NCBI RefSeq assembly: GCF_900116425.1
Contig: NZ_FPAS01000001.1
Location: 1,042,767-1,106,766 of the forward strand
From: Lishizhenia tianjinensis
Lineage (GTDB): Bacteria > Bacteroidota > Bacteroidia > Flavobacteriales_D > Crocinitomicaceae
Reading direction: 5' to 3'
Length of the DNA: 64,000 bases
Shown here: piece after piece, positions 10,628 through 20,056 of the stretch
Position numbering within the stretch: position 1 is the first letter of the stretch
Layout of the letters: each line of letters begins with the position of its first letter
Program-made: the position numbers and the translations under genes
The notes under the pieces: model-generated
Seen by the model: the letters and a program-made list of their open reading frames with translations, nothing else
Databases searched by the model: none
What the model was told of the DNA's origin: nothing

Positions 10628-10649
10628 ATCAGAAAAAGCACTAATTTAG
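10619..10649 (+). promoter_or_regulatory. Candidate promoter of the LytS-kinase operon, inside a terminator
   Basis: GTTG (10619-10622), 19-base spacer, TAATTTAG (10642-10649): each box is one mismatch from the -33 TTTG and -7 TAnnTTTG consensus, with ideal spacing. The -7 box spans the left arm and loop of the carB-operon terminator, and the kinase ATG is at 10672. Weak evidence, but no better promoter is visible. Confidence 0.3.
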
Positions 10650-10670
10650 CGATTAGTGCTTTTTTATTTT
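10633..10670 (+). terminator. Rho-independent terminator of carB-DUF4834
   Basis: AAAAAGCACTAAT and ATTAGTGCTTTTTT form a perfect 13-bp stem with a 6-base loop, followed by a T-rich run (TTTTTTATTTTT). The run ends directly at the start codon of the next gene (10672). Confidence 0.9.
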
Positions 10671-10671
10671 T

Positions 10672-13527
10672 ATGCGATTCACTCTACTTATTTACCTACT
10701 CTTTCTATGCCTCTTTGCACAAGGGCAACCCAACTTTGAAACCCAGGGTTTAAACGTGAGTGAACAACTTAACCTACCTAGTTTAGAGACCTACAAAATA
10801 AAACAAGATAGCAAGGGTAATATCTGGATATTATCTGATGCAGGTGTAATCCAATACGATGGAAACACTTCAAAAATATTCACCGCAAAAGATGGCTTAA
10901 CAAATTCCACCATATTTGACATGTATGAAGATCAATTCGGTAGAATTTGGTTTTTAGGAATGTCGCTTGAACTTTGTTACTTCCATGAGGGTAAAATTCA
11001 CTCCTATCGTTACAATCAATTGTTGAAACAACGCTTAAAAAACAAAGTTAGAATCTGGAAAGAGATTTATGTTGATTCCAATGATGCTGTGTATTACTCC
11101 ATCAACGGTGCGGGTTGTCATAAAATAACAAAAGAAGGAGACATAACTAAAATCAAGCAAAAAGACGGCATTGAAATTTTAGAAATTGAAGACCATTTAA
11201 TGATTTCCTGTAACATGCTTAAAGATAATTACAGGGTGGGTAAGAATCTCGACACCTTAAAACTTGATTTATATTTCAAGAATCAAGTGAAAGCATTGTT
11301 AACACCTCAAGTCAACTCGGCCATACAACCTTTTCAAAAAATAAAGGGATCAAATTTCAGTATTCTCTATAATACGGTATTTAAGGAAATGGAAGTTGTG
11401 GAAACAGAATCCAAAAGTGTTTATCTCACCCCTTACCACGATGACATTCTTGTTGCAACCGCCGGAGGCTTTTACATAGGTAAAGTAACGCAATCAGGCA
11501 TTACGCGTAGCTCACCAATGGTACTTCGCAATGATTACATCACCTCTATTTTGGTGGACAACCAAGGCGCAATTTGGGTATCTACTTTAGAGAATGGTAT
11601 CTTTTATTTCCAAGATCTGAACTTACAGTCCTCAACTTATATCGAAGAAGAAACGGATAAAAACATCCATAAAATCTTCACCTTCCAAAACAATCTTTAC
11701 GCCCTAAGCTACCATCATTTATTCAACCTATCAACATCTACATTTCTTTCAACAGAAGCGAATCAAGAGTATTGCAACTACGCTATTCTGGAAGATAAAT
11801 TGGTATTATCTAAGGGAGGAATACTCCATCCCTACAAAACTGAATTTGGCTACACACTTCCATTCTCCAGAGATCTAAAGGTAATAGACAATAAAATTTT
11901 TGTCTCTTCCTCAGACCGGGTTTACACAATAAAACCCGACCAATTAAAAATCACGCCTTTTTTCACCCCTTTCGATGATTCTAAAATTACATACTCAAAA
12001 AAAATTGCTCTTATTGATAGTAGCACTATACTCCACAGTAGTTTAGAAAAGATTAGAATTCTTAAGAAACACGCTACCCTGAAAGAGTTCTCAGATGCAT
12101 ACAATGTTCAACAAATGGAGAATATTGATCGTCAGCAAATACTCATTCTAGACAAAACCAAAGGACTGTTTTCTTTTAATATTGAAACCCAAGAAATTCA
12201 AGCACTCAACAACATCAATAGACTTTTACCCGAGGTAGAATTCAATTGCTTTTACTACGAAAAGAACAGAAATGAATACTATATAGCTTCTAATTCAGGT
12301 TTATTTATCTGTAGAGATAGTTCTATCAGAATTATTGATAAAAACAACGGTTTATCCTCCAATCAAATTAACAGTCTTTACTATGAAAACAACACCTTAT
12401 ACTTTGGAGTTAAAGGTAATGTATACCGTTATCACCTTAGTTCAAATCTTCCTCAACAACCTATTAAATCACAAAAAGCAAAAGCCACATTACTCACCTC
12501 TGACTCAAATAGTATAGCTATTTACGAGGAATCCAATTTTAGCTTCCCTTCTGGACTTAAGTTCTTAGAGTTTGACCTCAGTACCTACTCTTACTCCAAT
12601 TGGTTTCATAAACAATACCAATTTAGAACAGACACCAGTAATACTTGGATATCTACCAACACCCCCTCTTTTACATTAACCAACTTGAACGGCAAATATC
12701 AATTGGAGGCACGATACAAAATTGATGCGTTTACCTGGTCATCTCCCATTCAATTGGCACAAATCACCATTACCCCACCTTGGTACAAACACTGGATCAT
12801 GCTGGTGCTGTATTTAATCAGTTTAGGATTAATCATACTCTTACTTGTACGTTTTCGTTTGAATAGAAAAATGAAAAAGCTTCAGATTCAAAACAACCTA
12901 CTATCTTATCAGCAAAGGTTGAATAATGCGAGAATCAAACCTCACTTTATTTTCAATGTTTTGAACTCTATCAATAGTCATATCCTTTTCAATGAAAACC
13001 AGCAGGCTTCTAACTACCTCATCAAGTTTTCAAAACTGCTTCGAAACCTACTCGAAAAATCTGGCGATGACATCATTCTGATAGAACATGAGGTAGATTT
13101 AATTCAATCCTTTTTAAACCTCGAACAAATTCGAAACAATAATTTTGAATATACCATTGACCTGCCGTTAAACTTAAAAAGTCTTTACATTCCCTCTCTT
13201 ATGATACAACCCTTTGTTGAAAATGCGGTTGTACACGGACTTCATGCTGAAAAGGATCAAAATATCATCAGCATTAGCCTAAAAAAACAGGGTAGTAAGA
13301 CGATTCAAGTATCTATTAGCAACAATTCTCAGATGAGCCTGGAACAAATTGAGAAATGGCAAAAATCTAAAGAGGGACACGCGGTTCATATATCAAAAAG
13401 TAGAATTGTTAATTATAACAGACTTTTTAAACGAAAAGATTTATCTATTGAATTAGTTCCAAAAGATGACAACACGGAAATCATTTTAATATTACCCATC
13501 ATCCCTAACCAAAAAAAGAATCTATAG
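10672..13527 (+). CDS. Reg_prop/LytS-type sensor histidine kinase, paralogue 1
   Basis: 951 residues: signal peptide (ending about QGQ, 18-20), Reg_prop propeller blades (DSKGNIWILSDAGVIQYDG, DQFGRIWF, DNQGAIWVSTLENGIFYF), a Y_Y_Y-like beta domain before the membrane (about 620-700), one helix (about 708-730), and a His_kinase (LytS/YehU) domain with acceptor H758 in RIKPHFIFNVLNS and N-box PFVENAVVHGL. In the last glycine box the two paralogues have AVGIT; this one has AVHIS (H906 for G), so ATP binding may be weakened. It probably senses an extracellular polymer or other ligand in the periplasm. First of three tandem paralogues sharing one downstream LytTR regulator. Confidence 0.9.
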   Translation: MRFTLLIYLLFLCLFAQGQPNFETQGLNVSEQLNLPSLETYKIKQDSKGNIWILSDAGVIQYDGNTSKIFTAKDGLTNSTIFDMYEDQFGRIWFLGMSLELCYFHEGKIHSYRYNQLLKQRLKNKVRIWKEIYVDSNDAVYYSINGAGCHKITKEGDITKIKQKDGIEILEIEDHLMISCNMLKDNYRVGKNLDTLKLDLYFKNQVKALLTPQVNSAIQPFQKIKGSNFSILYNTVFKEMEVVETESKSVYLTPYHDDILVATAGGFYIGKVTQSGITRSSPMVLRNDYITSILVDNQGAIWVSTLENGIFYFQDLNLQSSTYIEEETDKNIHKIFTFQNNLYALSYHHLFNLSTSTFLSTEANQEYCNYAILEDKLVLSKGGILHPYKTEFGYTLPFSRDLKVIDNKIFVSSSDRVYTIKPDQLKITPFFTPFDDSKITYSKKIALIDSSTILHSSLEKIRILKKHATLKEFSDAYNVQQMENIDRQQILILDKTKGLFSFNIETQEIQALNNINRLLPEVEFNCFYYEKNRNEYYIASNSGLFICRDSSIRIIDKNNGLSSNQINSLYYENNTLYFGVKGNVYRYHLSSNLPQQPIKSQKAKATLLTSDSNSIAIYEESNFSFPSGLKFLEFDLSTYSYSNWFHKQYQFRTDTSNTWISTNTPSFTLTNLNGKYQLEARYKIDAFTWSSPIQLAQITITPPWYKHWIMLVLYLISLGLIILLLVRFRLNRKMKKLQIQNNLLSYQQRLNNARIKPHFIFNVLNSINSHILFNENQQASNYLIKFSKLLRNLLEKSGDDIILIEHEVDLIQSFLNLEQIRNNNFEYTIDLPLNLKSLYIPSLMIQPFVENAVVHGLHAEKDQNIISISLKKQGSKTIQVSISNNSQMSLEQIEKWQKSKEGHAVHISKSRIVNYNRLFKRKDLSIELVPKDDNTEIILILPIIPNQKKNL

Positions 13528-13534
13528 ATTAACA

Positions 13535-16456
13535 ATGCGAGTATTATTACTTAAATACCTATTTGCCTTTATCTGTGCCGCTGCATTCTCTTCAATGAGT
13601 TGGGGACAGAATTTTAATTTTGAATATTCCACGCTTTCCATTAATGAAGAATGTGGACTAAACAGCAGGGAGTGTTATTTTGTAACAAAAGATAGCAAAG
13701 ACAATCTTTGGATTTGTACAGACCTTGGGGTATACAAATATGATGGTTACAATACCATACACTATAGCATCAATGACGGTTTATTAAGTAACGTTGTTTT
13801 TGAAATATATGAAGATTACAAAGGAAGAATATGGTTTTTAACAAAATCTACTCTCTTATGCTATCTCGAAGGTGGAGTCATAAAGAGTTATGAATATAAC
13901 TCGGAAATCATCAAACATTGTATCTACCCTACCACTGATAGAAAAAAACTTATTGTAACACCAAATAACGTTTATTACTCAGTTGATTTATGTGGTTATT
14001 TCACCATTACCAATAAGGGGCAAATTATAGAAAACAACAATCCTGTGGGAAGACTTACCCTTGGAATATTAGAGGATAGTTTATGTACAATAGGATATAA
14101 AAGCACAAAAAGAACGCTTCAACAAATACTTAAGGATAAAGTAAAATATCGCCCTTTGTATATTAACAAAGAAGGGAACATCTATCAAACGAATGCAGAC
14201 TCTGTAGAACGACATAAAAAATTTGATATAAGACACCTAAACGTTAATGATAACGACCTCGAAGGATTTGCCATATTAGGAGGTGCTTTATACAAATTTC
14301 CTGAGATTCAATTTTTACTCAAAGATGTATCATGTTTTTACCCGGATCCACTTCTGGATAATGCATATTGGATAGGAACAAAAAATGGATTCTTCCATGC
14401 TAAATTCATAAACAAACGTTTAATTAAAACTAAGAATTCAGAAACATTAGCTGGTAACTTCATAACTTCTATTTACTGTGACGACCTCGGAAACACTTGG
14501 GTAACAAGTTTAGAAAAAGGACTTTGTTTTTTGCCAAAACAACGTATACACAAACTTGAAATAACTCCTTTTTTAGAAAATCAAGAGAATGTAAGGGACT
14601 TTGAAGTTTTTAAATCTCAACTGTATGTGTCAACAAAATTCCATCTGGTAAATACAAATACAAAAAGAGTGGTTACTGCAAATTATTCACTTCTTCAAAA
14701 TTACAAGGATTCCTTACTCATTGCAAGTAACTTAATCCGTAAACCACATGATTGGGGGGGAATGGAAAGTAATTTAATGAGTATTGATTTTACACGTGAT
14801 TTTTTGCAAAAAGACAATGATATATATCTACTTTCCAATTTAATAACGAAAACAAATGTTCCCTCAAAAAGATTAGAAGTTATCTACCAAAGTAACCTTA
14901 GTAAACTCAAAGACCATCATTTGATTCGTTTCTTAGCAACCGAAAATGAAATCTATTTTGCATCATCAACAGCACTTTTTCAGTTAAAAAAAAATACTGT
15001 TTATCTTCTCAAGAATTTGGAGGGTATGGAAATTTCAGACCTAGCTCACATACCAGCCATAGGTATTATTATTTCATCAAAAAGTCAAGGACTTTTTAGA
15101 TACCAAAATAGCACATTACAAGCCTTTCAACTTGAAGAAAACAACGATTTAACTCGAAACATATCTTGTATACACTATTCAGAAAAAACATCTTGCTTAT
15201 ACATCGGAGGTTATCAAGGACTAATTATCTACCACGTTCCAAGTGGTAGAAGCGTTCAGCTCAACAAAAACCACGGGTTTGTCAATTCAAAAATTAGTAT
15301 AATAAAAGAATTCAATGATGAAATCTTTGTGGCCAGTTTTGACAAAATCTATAAGGTAAAAAATGAAGAAATAGTAAATCTTTTCCAAACAAAAGCAGAA
15401 AATACCAGAATCGCATCTGGAATAACGGGGATTTTACAAGATGGAATAAAATCAAAATCGCTCAATCAACTTTCTTACTTCGCAGATTTCATCACACTTA
15501 ATTTTAATGTGAAGGATTACAGCGTTTGGAAAAACAAAAAATACCAATACCGCCTCGATAAAAAAGGAAATTGGAATACAATATTATCTCCAGAGATACT
15601 CTTGCCTAACCCTAGAAAAAACTTTAATGTAGAAGTAAGATATTTAAAAAGCAATGACACTTGGAGTGATGTAGTAATAAACCATACAGTAAATATTTCA
15701 CCACCTTTTTATAGAACTTTCTGGTTTTATGTCTTAATTGTACTTTTGGCGTTCATTTTCCTTTTTTCAATATTAAGATTCAGATTAAAAAGAAAAGTAG
15801 AACGGCTACAAATTGCAAACAACCTACTATCACACCAACAACGCTTGCAAAACGCTCGTATTAAGCCTCATTTCATATTCAATGTTTTAAACTCTATTAA
15901 TGGACACATACTTTTCAATGAAAACAAACAGGCCTCTAATTACCTTATTAAATTCTCGCAATTGATGCGTAATTTATTGGAGAAATCGAGCGATGATATT
16001 ATTTCTCTAGAAAGTGAGGTTGAGTTACTCCATGCGTACTTATCCCTAGAGCAAATTCGAAAAGAAAATAAGTTCAAATTTCAAATAGATCTTCCGAATG
16101 AATTAAAACATTTCAATATTCCTGCATTGATGACACAACCTTTTACTGAAAATGCGGTGATTCACGGTATTTCTGACATGGAAGATAGAGCAGAGATACG
16201 AATAGCATTTAGTAGAGTATCAGATCGCTCTGTGCGTGTTGAGATTTGTAACACCGGAATAATTCCTTCTGATCAACTAAGTAAGTGGAACAATTCATCC
16301 GTTAAAAATGCTGTAGGTATTACCCAAGAACGCATCAAAAACCTTAGGTTGTTACACAACAATGCAGAATTGTTCATGGAAATTGAAAGAAGAGACAACC
16401 TAACATGTGTTGTAATGGTACTACCAATAATTAAATCGGAAGGTAGAGAAGCTTAA
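13535..16456 (+). CDS. Reg_prop/LytS-type sensor histidine kinase, paralogue 2
   Basis: 973 residues, 7 bases after paralogue 1 and the same architecture: signal peptide ending near SWGQ, Reg_prop propeller (DSKDNLWICTDLGVYKYDGY, DYKGRIWF, DDLGNTWVTSLEKGLCF), a Y_Y_Y-like domain (about 640-725), a transmembrane helix (about 728-750), and a LytS His_kinase domain with acceptor H779 in RIKPHFIFNVLNS, N-box PFTENAVIHGI and glycine box AVGIT. The propeller has diverged far more than the kinase domain, so it probably recognises a different ligand from its neighbours. It has no regulator of its own. Confidence 0.9.
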   Translation: MRVLLLKYLFAFICAAAFSSMSWGQNFNFEYSTLSINEECGLNSRECYFVTKDSKDNLWICTDLGVYKYDGYNTIHYSINDGLLSNVVFEIYEDYKGRIWFLTKSTLLCYLEGGVIKSYEYNSEIIKHCIYPTTDRKKLIVTPNNVYYSVDLCGYFTITNKGQIIENNNPVGRLTLGILEDSLCTIGYKSTKRTLQQILKDKVKYRPLYINKEGNIYQTNADSVERHKKFDIRHLNVNDNDLEGFAILGGALYKFPEIQFLLKDVSCFYPDPLLDNAYWIGTKNGFFHAKFINKRLIKTKNSETLAGNFITSIYCDDLGNTWVTSLEKGLCFLPKQRIHKLEITPFLENQENVRDFEVFKSQLYVSTKFHLVNTNTKRVVTANYSLLQNYKDSLLIASNLIRKPHDWGGMESNLMSIDFTRDFLQKDNDIYLLSNLITKTNVPSKRLEVIYQSNLSKLKDHHLIRFLATENEIYFASSTALFQLKKNTVYLLKNLEGMEISDLAHIPAIGIIISSKSQGLFRYQNSTLQAFQLEENNDLTRNISCIHYSEKTSCLYIGGYQGLIIYHVPSGRSVQLNKNHGFVNSKISIIKEFNDEIFVASFDKIYKVKNEEIVNLFQTKAENTRIASGITGILQDGIKSKSLNQLSYFADFITLNFNVKDYSVWKNKKYQYRLDKKGNWNTILSPEILLPNPRKNFNVEVRYLKSNDTWSDVVINHTVNISPPFYRTFWFYVLIVLLAFIFLFSILRFRLKRKVERLQIANNLLSHQQRLQNARIKPHFIFNVLNSINGHILFNENKQASNYLIKFSQLMRNLLEKSSDDIISLESEVELLHAYLSLEQIRKENKFKFQIDLPNELKHFNIPALMTQPFTENAVIHGISDMEDRAEIRIAFSRVSDRSVRVEICNTGIIPSDQLSKWNNSSVKNAVGITQERIKNLRLLHNNAELFMEIERRDNLTCVVMVLPIIKSEGREA

Positions 16457-16465
16457 ATAATATAT

Positions 16466-16473
16466 TAATTTTG
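16466..16473 (+). promoter_or_regulatory. Possible internal promoter before kinase paralogue 3
   Basis: TAATTTTG matches the -7 consensus TAnnTTTG 11 bases before the ATG at 16485, in the only sizeable gap (28 bases) of the kinase operon. No -33 box is evident at 19 bases upstream. It could let the third kinase and the regulator be made independently of the first two. Confidence 0.3.
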
Positions 16474-16484
16474 GTAGCTGTTGC

Positions 16485-19349
16485 ATGAAAAAATTTAACC
16501 CTATAAGTTTTCCTTCTGTCATCACCTTAGTTCTATTGATGATGTGTTTGCCACTTCTAAGCTCGGGGCAGGCCAATTTTGCACAAGCCACCTATAAAAT
16601 TAATGAGCAATGTGGTCTAAAAAGTACAGAGGCTTATCATGTAATGAAGGACAGCAAAAACAACCTTTGGATTTGTTCAGACATGGGGTTGGTGCGCTAC
16701 GATGGATTCAACGCTACTTCCTTCACCACAAAAAATGGCTTGCCCAGCAATGTTGTTTTCCAATCCTACGAAGATCCTTTTGGAAGGATTTGGGCCTTAA
16801 GCATACGCAAAGAATTGTATTACATAGAAAATGACAGTATTCATCCCTACATCTATAATTCTTTACTTGACACCCTTTTAGACAATGATGAGTACTTATT
16901 TAAAAGAATATTAATCGACAAAGACAGTACCGTATACTTTAGTAATGCTTTTAATGGAACCTTTAGTATAGATAAAAACGGAAATTACCAAGTATACTCT
17001 GAAAGCATTTCGAAATTTGAGATTATCGAAATCGATGGTAAATTTTTACTTTCATGTTGGAACAAAAAAGGATTAGTTAATTTTAATATTCAATCGAAAA
17101 ATAATTATACCCATAATATCATTGATTCTTTAAGTTTAAACTTACCTTCTGATATATCCAACCTAAATATAGACCCTGAACTAAACACGTTAGAAGGTTT
17201 AATCTTAATTGGTGGAAAGGTAATTTCCTTACCGTCAACTACCATATTAGCTACAAACGTAACCGCCTTAGAGAAAATACCTTATACAACAGAGTATTGG
17301 ATTTCAAAAAACAATTATACATACAGGGCAGAATTTTCAAATAACAAACTCATACCTATTCTCAACTCGGACATTAACCAAAACCTATATGTAAGCTCTA
17401 TTTATGCCGATAAAGATGGTAATACATGGTTCTCTACTTTAGAAGAAGGTATTATTTACCTTCCCGAATACAAAGTTCATCACCTTAGCAATGCGTCGGG
17501 TAATAAAATAGAGGATGAAGTCTTGGATTTTTGCATCAATAAGGACCAAATCATTCTCTCGTTTAAAAACCACATTTTAGATGTTAACAGCAATCAGCGT
17601 TACCCTTCTGATCATTCTAAATTAGTTTTTAAAAACAATCACCTCTTCATTTCCAACCTTTGGAGAATAGACAACCATTTTGAATTAGAAAAATATCCAA
17701 AAAACACACAGTTTGTCAATCATGCTCGAGATATCTATGTAGATGGAAACGAGTTTTTTGCCACCACCTCTTACATACATCGAACAAATACCGTTAACCT
17801 CGAGTACGATACAGTTCTTTTCCGCCGAGACTTAATTCGCTTTATTTCTCAAGTGGCCCGTTACAGAAACGAACTCTACTGCTCCTCAAAGAATAAACTT
17901 TATAAGGTTATTAACGACAGCGTAGAACTCATTTACGATTTCAGTAACAAGGAAATTACAGACTTACTTGTTTACCAAGACAGGTTACTTATCTCTACCA
18001 AGAACTTTGGTATCTATCAATATGATGGCAGGCAAACAAAACACTTTTTAAACAAAAAGAACGGTCTCAACAATGAGAATGTAAATGTGATGGCTAAATC
18101 TGCCAACAACAGATATCTCTACATTGGATGTTTTAAAGGACTGGAGATCTACGATCATTTCACCAGTAAATGCATCAGTATTTCAAAAAATCAAGGGTTA
18201 ACGGATCTAAAAGTAAATAAACTAGAGGAAGCTGAGGGAATCTTATACATAGCCACGGAAAAAGGCTTTTATAAAATAAGTTATCACGACATAAGAAACT
18301 TGAGTAAAATCAACAGTTCCAACGAAATACATCCAGAAGTAACCAACTTAAGAGTAGATACAGAAAACTATAAAAACCTCATTTCGTTACCTACGGACGC
18401 GCAAGTATTAAGCATAAGCTTTCAAATAAAAGATCTAAAAAATTGGTTCAACAAACGCTATCAATACCAAATAAATGAGGGGGAATGGATAAATATTTTA
18501 TCGCCCGAAATTGTTTTAACCAACCCACAAAAAAGACTTAAAATCAACCTGAGGTATTACATGAGCAATAATACATGGAGTGATAGTGTGGTTTTAATAG
18601 AGGGAAGTATACGAGAACCTTTTTACACCTCTGTTTGGTTCTTTGTGATTCTACTCTTCTTTTTAGCATTTGCTGTTTTCCTTGTTATGAAAGGAATTAA
18701 CTCCAATAAGATAAGAAAACTCGAAAAAGAAAACGAAATGCTGTCTTATCAGCAACGTATGCAAAATGCGAGAATGAAGCCCCACTTTATCTTTAACGTA
18801 CTAAATTCTATATACAGCTTCATCCTTTTTAACGAAAACAAAAATGCAGCGAACTACCTCTTAAAATTCTCTGCCTTGATGCGCAGCGTTTTAGAAAACT
18901 CTAGCGATGAGAAAGTGAAGATAAGTGATGAAGTAAAACTCTTGGAGAATTACTTAGAACTCGAGAATTTAAGACATGACAATTCTTTTCAATACGATAT
19001 AAAAATCCACAATACAGATAAGTTTTTAGAAATTCCATCGTTAATGATACAACCCTTTGTGGAAAATGCCATTGTGCATGGGTTAAATCACGACGATAAG
19101 AACTCGCGCATACAAGTAGATATAGAAAAAATAAATGACCAAATCATCGAAGTAAAAATATTCAACACAGGAAAGATCTCCGCTGAAATAGCAGAAAAAC
19201 TGCATCAATCTACAGAGAAAAACGCCGTTGGTATTACCCGATCTCGATTAAAGAATTACAATAATTTAAACACCTATGAGCAGTACAAAATGGAAATAGA
19301 AAATGTTTACAATGGTACGCTCATTAAACTCTTCATCCCTATTTTATAA
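16485..19349 (+). CDS. Reg_prop/LytS-type sensor histidine kinase, paralogue 3
   Basis: 954 residues; signal peptide ending near SSGQ, Reg_prop blades (DSKNNLWICSDMGLVRYDGF, DPFGRIWAL, DKDGNTWFSTLEEGIIYL), a Y_Y_Y-like domain, a transmembrane helix (about 712-735), and a His_kinase domain with acceptor H767 in RMKPHFIFNVLNS, N-box PFVENAIVHGL and glycine box AVGIT. It ends 5 bases before the response regulator, so it is the most tightly coupled of the three kinases. A possible promoter lies just upstream. LytS-type kinases phosphorylate LytTR regulators. Confidence 0.9.
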   Translation: MKKFNPISFPSVITLVLLMMCLPLLSSGQANFAQATYKINEQCGLKSTEAYHVMKDSKNNLWICSDMGLVRYDGFNATSFTTKNGLPSNVVFQSYEDPFGRIWALSIRKELYYIENDSIHPYIYNSLLDTLLDNDEYLFKRILIDKDSTVYFSNAFNGTFSIDKNGNYQVYSESISKFEIIEIDGKFLLSCWNKKGLVNFNIQSKNNYTHNIIDSLSLNLPSDISNLNIDPELNTLEGLILIGGKVISLPSTTILATNVTALEKIPYTTEYWISKNNYTYRAEFSNNKLIPILNSDINQNLYVSSIYADKDGNTWFSTLEEGIIYLPEYKVHHLSNASGNKIEDEVLDFCINKDQIILSFKNHILDVNSNQRYPSDHSKLVFKNNHLFISNLWRIDNHFELEKYPKNTQFVNHARDIYVDGNEFFATTSYIHRTNTVNLEYDTVLFRRDLIRFISQVARYRNELYCSSKNKLYKVINDSVELIYDFSNKEITDLLVYQDRLLISTKNFGIYQYDGRQTKHFLNKKNGLNNENVNVMAKSANNRYLYIGCFKGLEIYDHFTSKCISISKNQGLTDLKVNKLEEAEGILYIATEKGFYKISYHDIRNLSKINSSNEIHPEVTNLRVDTENYKNLISLPTDAQVLSISFQIKDLKNWFNKRYQYQINEGEWINILSPEIVLTNPQKRLKINLRYYMSNNTWSDSVVLIEGSIREPFYTSVWFFVILLFFLAFAVFLVMKGINSNKIRKLEKENEMLSYQQRMQNARMKPHFIFNVLNSIYSFILFNENKNAANYLLKFSALMRSVLENSSDEKVKISDEVKLLENYLELENLRHDNSFQYDIKIHNTDKFLEIPSLMIQPFVENAIVHGLNHDDKNSRIQVDIEKINDQIIEVKIFNTGKISAEIAEKLHQSTEKNAVGITRSRLKNYNNLNTYEQYKMEIENVYNGTLIKLFIPIL

Positions 19350-19354
19350 CGTAT

Positions 19355-20056
19355 ATGAAAATACTAATTGTTGACGACGAACTTTTAGCCAGACGCATCA
19401 TCAGAAAAATAATATCAGAACACTTCCCAACTTTTGAATTTACGCGTGAAGCCTCTAATTTAAATGAAGCCATTACGATAATTAAGGAGGATAAACCAGA
19501 TTTAATCTTTTTAGATATACAGCTCAAAGACAAAAATAGCTTCGAAATATTTGAGCAACTCGATCATAATGAATTAAATATAATTTTTGTTACCGCTTAC
19601 GAGCAATACGGTATCAAAGCCTTTGAGGTTGGTGCCAAACACTACATTTTAAAACCGATAGAGGAAGAAAAATTGATAGATGCCACCGAGAAAGTAATGC
19701 GTATTATGCAGAACAAAAATGTGGAATTGGGTAAAATTTCTATTCCTTACAATTCAGATTACAAAATTCTAGAAACACAAAAAATCATTTTCGCCCAAGC
19801 AGATGGTGCATATTGTAAAATTTTCATGAAAGACAATGCCGAAGAGTACCTGAGTAAACCACTCAATTATATTGAGGAGAAGCTCAAGAACTTCAGCTCT
19901 TTCTTCCGTATACACAAAAGCTTTTTGGTTAATGGAGATTTTATAGAATCTATCGCTAGAGATAAAAGTAGTTTGTTACTCACAAGCGGAGAGACCTTGC
20001 CTATCGCTCGTTCTAGAAGAGACGATTTTAAAGCTTTCATTAGTGAGTACTTTTAA
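19355..20056 (+). CDS. LytTR-family response regulator
   Basis: 233 residues: receiver (1-118) with DDE at 7-9, phospho-acceptor D54 (LIFLDIQ), conserved T and K (VTAYEQYG, LKPIEEE), and a LytTR DNA-binding domain (about 135-233) with the segment FFRIHKSFLVN typical of the fold. LytTR proteins bind direct-repeat promoter sites as beta-sheet DNA readers. It is last in an operon of three paralogous LytS-type kinases and is their only regulator here, suggesting that several inputs converge on it. A strong terminator follows about 120 bases later. Confidence 0.93.
   Translation: MKILIVDDELLARRIIRKIISEHFPTFEFTREASNLNEAITIIKEDKPDLIFLDIQLKDKNSFEIFEQLDHNELNIIFVTAYEQYGIKAFEVGAKHYILKPIEEEKLIDATEKVMRIMQNKNVELGKISIPYNSDYKILETQKIIFAQADGAYCKIFMKDNAEEYLSKPLNYIEEKLKNFSSFFRIHKSFLVNGDFIESIARDKSSLLLTSGETLPIARSRRDDFKAFISEYF

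Follow-up and report, generated by a model that had tools for sequence, protein, structure and literature searches.

Organisation of the gene array

The window analysed here is a stretch of 64,000 nucleotides from the genome of Lishizhenia tianjinensis (NCBI RefSeq assembly GCF_900116425.1, contig NZ_FPAS01000001.1, positions 1,042,767 to 1,106,766 of the forward strand). It contains an array of three genes on the plus strand encoding propeller histidine kinases, here called K1, K2 and K3, followed by a single gene for a response regulator with a receiver (REC) and a LytTR domain (Table 1). The gaps between the open reading frames (ORFs) are 7 nt (K1–K2), 28 nt (K2–K3) and 5 nt (K3–regulator). 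More than one kinase and one regulator are in this way placed in a single same-strand gene run, the co-transcription of which is presumed only. We consider it likely that the array derives from a one-to-one pair of a propeller LytS kinase and a LytTR regulator in which the kinase gene was duplicated without the regulator, resulting in a fan-in arrangement where several sensors would act on one regulator.

Table 1. Features of the array and its upstream flank (positions are those of the window).
Feature	Position	Strand	Details and evidence
K1 propeller sensor kinase	10672..13527	+	951 aa, phospho-His H758; ORF, Pfam, model
K1 DHp segment	12853..13167	+	aa 728-832 as cut here, around KPHFIFN
K1 ATPase G1 box	13321..13329	+	N-N-S, aa 884-886
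K2 propeller sensor kinase	13535..16456	+	973 aa, phospho-His H779; ORF, Pfam
K2 DHp segment	15779..16093	+	aa 749-853
K3 propeller sensor kinase	16485..19349	+	954 aa, phospho-His H767; ORF, Pfam, model
K3 DHp segment	18693..19007	+	aa 737-841
REC-LytTR response regulator	19355..20056	+	233 aa, receiver Asp D54; ORF, Pfam
Terminator-like hairpin, 15 pairs	10632..10665	+	consensus match only; T-rich tail reaches K1 start codon

Domain structure of the kinases and the regulator

Reg_prop and His_kinase (PF06580) domains were identified by Pfam above the curated cut-offs in K1, K2 and K3, and the regulator gave matches to Response_reg (80.8 bits) and LytTR (61.2 bits) with the phospho-acceptor Asp present. 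The ORFs and the Pfam matches agree with the original prediction, made from the DNA sequence alone, of three paralogues followed by one LytTR regulator. A Y_Y_Y domain was matched in K1 only, below the threshold (E 0.0026), and the Pfam search gave no such match for K2 or K3 at E values up to 1.

Structure models were obtained with AlphaFold for K1 and K3 of the three kinases (mean predicted local distance difference test, pLDDT, 76.6 and 78.0). The two models are alike: a helix at the N-terminus is followed by the strands of the propeller, a beta domain, a long helix (residues 708–754 in K1 and 717–762 in K3) and the kinase core. The common layout that had been predicted agrees with the domains of all three proteins and with these two models. 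The closest solved structures, using the profile of alignment A6, were 4a2l (E 5.5e-94) and 3v9f, which are periplasmic sensors of Bacteroides hybrid systems. A Foldseek search with the K1 model also returned 4a2l first (E 9.9e-32, TM about 0.47 by query), followed by 4a2m and then by 3ott and 3v9f. By the profile and by the match of the K1 model to 4a2l, the sensors belong to the double-propeller Reg_prop fold. No receiver or DNA-binding domain was found above the Pfam cut-offs within the K1–K3 chains, which therefore do not have the layout of a hybrid two-component system (HTCS).

The phospho-His and the N box are intact in all three kinases, and the motif KPHFIFN at the phospho-His is found in K1–K3 alone among 82 kinases. 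The G1 box reads N-T-G in K2 and K3 and N-N-S in K1; in relatives with data, Asp is present in 72 and Gly in 77 of 80 kinases. The kinase of locus L037, a single kinase beside its regulator, also has an altered G1 box (N-N-Q), and for this reason the loss in K1 is suggestive at most. We did not accept K1 as a plain pseudokinase, given the similar alteration in L037 and an ATPase branch not longer than K2's (2.00 for K1 and 1.99 for K2 in trees of 14 rows).

Phylogeny and conservation of K1–K3

K1, K2 and K3 form one clade in the kinase tree (support 100/97) and, more weakly, in a tree of propeller plus linker (SH-aLRT 85). Their nearest relatives (L112, L113 and L037) are loci with a single kinase and a regulator. 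These observations suggest a duplication of the kinase gene alone, in line with the local duplication proposed in the original prediction. The regulator tree mirrors the kinase tree: the regulator of the array groups with those of L112, L037 and L113 (99/99), then with those of the Fluviicola-type loci L118 and L114 (99/91), and is the only one of its clade in its own genome.

The DHp is the segment of a histidine kinase that carries the phospho-His and serves dimerisation and docking of the regulator. Identities in propeller, linker, DHp and ATPase domain are 28, 25, 75 and 34% for K1–K2, 29, 25, 56 and 41% for K1–K3, and 31, 36, 55 and 38% for K2–K3. The propellers are as divergent as had been predicted. 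The kinase domains had been described as closely similar, which is correct for the DHp but not for the ATPase domains; these are little more alike than the propellers. K1–K2 ranked first in excess of DHp over ATPase identity among 2556 pairs, which are not independent of each other, and K2–K3 and K1–K3 ranked 127 and 203. This ranking included 72 of the 82 collected kinases; the other 10 were dropped, either because the cutting rule failed on them or because of their length (too short, or not that of a propeller kinase). Silent sites are saturated everywhere among K1, K2 and K3 (proportion of silent differences, pS, 0.72–0.90), including the DHp of K1 and K2 (pS 0.81), and the close match of these two segments is consequently not a recent copy. 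The non-synonymous divergence (dN) of the DHp is 0.17 for K1–K2 and 0.39–0.41 for the other two pairs.

A comparison of propeller and kinase phylogenies, which had been suggested along with the original prediction, revealed a conflict. Using 14 chosen rows, and with the reservations that the groupings were noticed before they were tested and that the K1 propeller is a long branch, the propeller tree placed K2 with K3 (100/99; K1+K2 rejected, p 0.008), whereas the DHp tree placed K1 with K2 (100/98; K2+K3 rejected, p 0.009). The linker (91/89) and ATPase (73/66) trees lean towards K2+K3 without rejecting K1+K2 (p 0.09 and 0.36, respectively). In an alignment reaching from 60 residues before the His to 80 residues past it, which included six outgroup rows, K1 and K2 agree to the exclusion of K3 in 31 columns, and in 17 of these the outgroups lack the residue; the corresponding numbers are 13 (3) for K2 and K3 and 8 (2) for K1 and K3. 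The simplest reading of these sequence patterns is either an old exchange between K1 and K2 restricted to the DHp, or derived residues that both kinases have retained under a common constraint. An old conversion would explain the conflict.

Given the nearly shared DHp, mixed dimers of K1 and K2 are plausible, if less likely than not. Mixed dimers, first of all of these two, would be a reasonable addition to a many-to-one account; native ChrS and HrrS are reported to heterodimerise in two-hybrid tests, whereas a truncated pseudokinase form did not (PMC9491836). A more far-reaching possibility, which we regard as somewhat unlikely, is that K1 and K2 function mostly or exclusively as a mixed dimer, with K3 joining in or acting alone, in which case the array would be one compound receptor and not three inputs. 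The top-ranking DHp identity of K1 and K2, their grouping in the DHp tree contrary to the propeller tree, and the N-N-S box of K1 would fit such a receptor. There is also a precedent in FasB and FasC of group A Streptococcus, which are reported to heterodimerise and act on one regulator, the kinase domain of FasC being dispensable (PMC12675982). However, the altered G1 box is no proof of inactivity, as seen from the lone L037 kinase, and the ATPase branch of K1 is not longer than that of K2. Furthermore, a shared DHp would also follow from homodimers docking the same regulator, and its identity does not demonstrate dimerisation.

LytTR regulators elsewhere in the genome

The genome of L. tianjinensis (G000, 3.56 Mb), the sole one with its genus code among the 60 family genomes listed, encodes 8 LytS-type kinases and 9 LytTR proteins. 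Outside the array, three kinases (C2:104560, C2:974875 and C8:254590) have one adjoining LytTR each, and two lack a LytTR neighbour, namely the propeller kinase C9:170664 (L001, 996 aa) and C2:841601, which appears TPR-like by eye. Of the propeller-size kinases outside the array, the one on C8 is paired and the one on C9 is not.

Five LytTR proteins have no LytS neighbour. One of these, the orphan regulator C7:227514 (L004), is sister to the regulator of L077 (100/97), and the orphan kinase on C9 is sister (97/92) to the kinase adjoining that regulator. As they are sisters of an adjacent pair, the C9 kinase and the C7 regulator constitute a split pair. In the regulator tree, C6:74648 is placed with C8:410404 and C6:247838 (95/90), the kinases adjoining the latter two being, we assume, of the HisKA_2 type; in a wider quick tree C6:74648 joins Fluviicola-type orphans (98). 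C8:94206 has, by eye, membrane helices and a LytTR domain but no receiver. Based on trees, orthology and all 9 LytTR proteins, no LytTR regulator in the genome is left over for K1 or K2.

Orphan regulators elsewhere that pair with the first two kinases had been named as the observation that would speak against a shared regulator. Such partners for K1 or K2 were rejected on tree and orthology, the other regulators being placed elsewhere. The orphan REC-LytTR rows from three related genomes (G009, G058 and G088) fall in two other supported groups in 12 of 13 cases; outside the tree are L127, L135 and L138, where only the LytTR part was matched, and L134, merged as a near-copy.

Distribution among related genomes

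A search of 240 genomes of the family with K3 gave relatives at E ≤1e-60 in 16, own genome included. A profile of the clade regulator (A2) gave one match of 358–382 bits in each of 11 of these 16 genomes, the next match being at 216 bits. A kinase profile (A3) gave 34 matches of at least 620 bits in addition to one split gene (G091), the next whole match being at 514 bits. Both lists of matches extend far below the scores of the clade. Both profiles include some of the scored sequences, which raises the scores of these, and the gap holds for the others too. A diverged regulator (215 bits) is located beside its kinase in G139, the regulator matches beside the kinases of G099 and G091 are ended by the contig end, and the kinase lies at a contig end in G067 and G068.

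The number of kinases per clade regulator is five in G009, four in G088, three in G000, G089, G093 and G095, two in G058, G094 and G097, and one in G135 and G151. In total, 29 clade kinases are found against 11 regulators, and more than one kinase (two to five) is present in 9 of the 11 genomes. Full lists of LytS and LytTR proteins were made in G009, G058 and G088, where frames of at least 900 aa were taken as a sign of a propeller kinase. Among 32 such kinases, a LytTR is located within 4.5 kb of all 21 outside the clade, but of none of the 11 clade kinases. The clade regulator lies approximately 6 kb from the nearest clade kinase in these three genomes, and the other clade kinases are at an unlinked locus. 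At L118, L136, L137, L143 and L144, genes on the opposite strand resembling an efflux-pump operon separate the shared regulator from the kinases; at L114 the regulator and kinases are adjacent.

A frequency survey was made on 80 loci that came from a single scan of named genomes, picked by similarity to K1–K3 and overlapping with the family genomes. Of its 53 kinase clusters, 36 pair a single kinase with a single regulator and 11 have a lone kinase without a regulator (with a short flank in 6 cases). Two kinases occur without a regulator in 4 clusters (L032, L034, L038 and L043, which all belong to the Fluviicola clade) and together with one regulator in 1 (L050), and in 1 cluster (L064) a single kinase is accompanied by two regulators. 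No tandem of three kinases was present among these 53 clusters, and one other tandem trio is known to us from G009 (L118). The 3:1 ratio had been called unusual, and as a tandem trio it is indeed rare; as an instance of many kinases per regulator it is the habit of the clade. Judged from these counts, the array is one case of a lineage habit, not a unique oddity.

Three observations were made in passing. At L064:3471-8088 two LytTR regulators adjoin one propeller kinase, which is the reverse arrangement. An 869-aa chain at L072:10001-12607 has Reg_prop, a sub-threshold Y_Y_Y and LytTR, with no kinase match, and by its domains is a predicted one-component propeller-to-LytTR regulator. The kinases of CP034120.1 (L043), named Glaciecola amylolytica, group with those of Fluviicola, a genus that NCBI record labels place in the Crocinitomicaceae; the record is probably a misnamed genome.

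Two relatives carry nearly identical kinase parts under different sensors. In the G009 trio (L118:8813-17610) the ATPase domains are 95–99% identical, with a synonymous divergence (dS) of 0.15–0.18, and the propellers 50–53%; identity climbs over the roughly 25 codons ahead of the His and from there remains 90–100% up to the stop codon. In the G088 pair (L136:9930-15992) the ATPase domain is 100%, the DHp 91% and the propeller 58% identical, and near-identical DNA starts about 65 codons after the His. This amounts to a recent homogenisation of part of the kinase half in both genomes.

Alternative explanations

The relation between kinases and regulator could still be one-to-one if the adjacent regulator served K3 alone and K1, K2 or both had their partners encoded elsewhere. 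We find this improbable. Five LytTR proteins without a LytS neighbour would be available, split pairs occur in this genome (C9/C7), and orphan kinases are common in marine bacteria (PMC6365647). However, orthology links the C7 orphan to the C9 kinase, the three remaining orphans that have a receiver belong to different regulator clades, the DHp segments of K1 and K2 have the clade-specific KPHFIFN in common with K3, and none of the 11 genomes that gave a strong match has a second clade regulator.

It is very unlikely that one or two of the kinases are decaying duplicates on their way out and no longer signalling. The altered G1 box of K1, the variable copy number among relatives and the second kinase of G091, which is split between two frames, could be taken in that direction, but three intact frames of about 950 aa have been kept in the array despite saturated silent sites, with a DHp dN of just 0.17–0.41. 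That a recent gene conversion, accidental and of no functional consequence, produced the K1–K2 DHp match is hardly credible: relatives do homogenise their kinase halves recently, as in G009 and G088, but the saturated silent sites of K1 and K2 rule out recent conversion, and any copy must be old and the protein kept since.

Several points weigh against duplication of the kinase with sharing of one regulator. The sharing was deduced from gene counts and trees, and the survey of partners covered LytTR regulators. The C9/C7 case shows that kinase–regulator pairs can be split in this genome, so that gene order is no proof, and orphan regulators exist in every genome counted (the lists of G009, G058 and G088). 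The G009 orphan regulator L125 has no resolved place in the tree, and the 216-bit regulator of G067 is not beside its kinase, its place in the tree not being settled. A comparison of DHp identities counts in favour of the sharing, with a reservation: within-genome pairs with ATPase identity of at most 45% have a DHp identity of 50–75% (mean 56, n=21) if assigned to the same regulator and 33–52% (mean 40.5, n=32) if assigned to different ones, but this is partly confounded, the regulator-sharing pairs being closer kin. It included only a sample of the non-clade kinases, and one G088 kinase (o1) with a different His motif was dropped.

A model for the array

Trees and gene counts nevertheless favour one regulator common to several kinases, as originally predicted. 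With several paralogous kinases and, in the genome, just one regulator of the lineage that matches them, the array would represent many-to-one wiring in which phosphotransfer is presumed. In the ancestor, the kinase gene of a one-to-one propeller LytS/LytTR pair would have been duplicated alone. The double-propeller sensors of K1, K2 and K3 would sit outside the inner membrane, and the signal would cross by a membrane helix to the DHp. All three kinases would phosphorylate or dephosphorylate the one regulator, which may then act on DNA through its LytTR domain. The sensor and ATPase parts would be free to diverge, while the DHp, needed for dimer formation and docking of the regulator, would be held alike or exchanged between the paralogues. 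K1, with its altered G1 box, may perhaps be mainly a sensing and phospho-accepting partner.

This fan-in array may also be one with concerted evolution of its output module, where sensors and ATPase domains diversify, the DHp is repeatedly held or copied, and subunits mix with K1 as a partner impaired in ATP binding. This speculation, which draws on a presumed old DHp-only exchange between K1 and K2 and on the recent homogenisation in G009 and G088, we regard as doubtful. If true, three genes would encode as many as six kinds of receptor dimer with one LytTR switch as their common target.

Flanking genes

Only 44 nt separate K1 from a preceding short ORF, and the strong terminator-like hairpin with its T-rich tail (10632-10671) lies directly in front of the K1 start. 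It is therefore not obvious where the array has its promoter, and there may be read-through or attenuation. The neighbours of the array genes appear unrelated. Upstream there is, apart from the short ORF, a 938-aa ORF that we take to be the large subunit of carbamoyl-phosphate synthase. One downstream ORF has matches below the Pfam cut-offs to phospholipase C and S1-P1 nuclease, and another a strong match to 2-phosphosulpholactate phosphatase.

Comparison with known systems and significance

ComE-like regulators carry LytTR domains, and to our knowledge the FasBCA kinases are without propellers. Like the array, FasBCA combines kinase-like sensors and one regulator, there ComE-like, in one locus; it has two kinases and not three, and its heterodimerisation is reported from two-hybrid tests, whereas K1–K2 dimers are only putative (PMC12675982). 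In multikinase networks such as GacS/RetS several kinases also tune one pathway and paralogous kinases may act on one another, but they consist of other kinase types, including several hybrids, and not of tandem near-equal paralogues with one LytTR regulator (PMC5992135, PMC8175716). The Bacteroides HTCS sensors BT4663, BT3049 and BT4673 (4a2l, 3v9f and 3ott) share the large periplasmic Reg_prop propellers with a Y_Y_Y-type domain and a kinase; there, receiver and DNA-binding domains are in the kinase chain, in contrast to the separate regulator of K1–K3 (PMC3243724). By analogy to these relatives, oligosaccharides as the ligand would be a guess (PMC3243724).

A further parallel is in the Fluviicola-type arrays (L114, L118, L136 and unlinked tandem pairs), from a neighbouring kinase clade and a sister regulator clade, which also have one clade regulator per genome and two to five kinases. 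These differ in that the kinases are spread over as many as two unlinked loci and, in several genomes, are separated from the regulator by about 6 kb, and in the recently homogenised kinase half of G009 and G088, which is not seen in K1–K3. No published description of such an array was found in titles and abstract openings, most subscription papers being outside the search, and nothing related was found in the literature on gene conversion in kinases. Many-kinase networks are already known, and the array is a variant of these. What is new here is that only the DHp stays alike, with signs in the sequences of exchange between paralogues.

Two-component pathways are usually regarded as insulated one-to-one pairs. 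In this lineage the kinase clade has one to five copies per genome and the regulator is single, beside 21 of 21 one-to-one neighbours among the other propeller-size kinases in three genomes. This offers a natural experiment that may show how many-to-one wiring comes about and persists, by keeping or copying the docking and dimerisation segment while the sensors change. Mixed sensor dimers would be testable in a simple three-gene set, and the array and its relatives constitute a good natural case of many inputs converging on one output.

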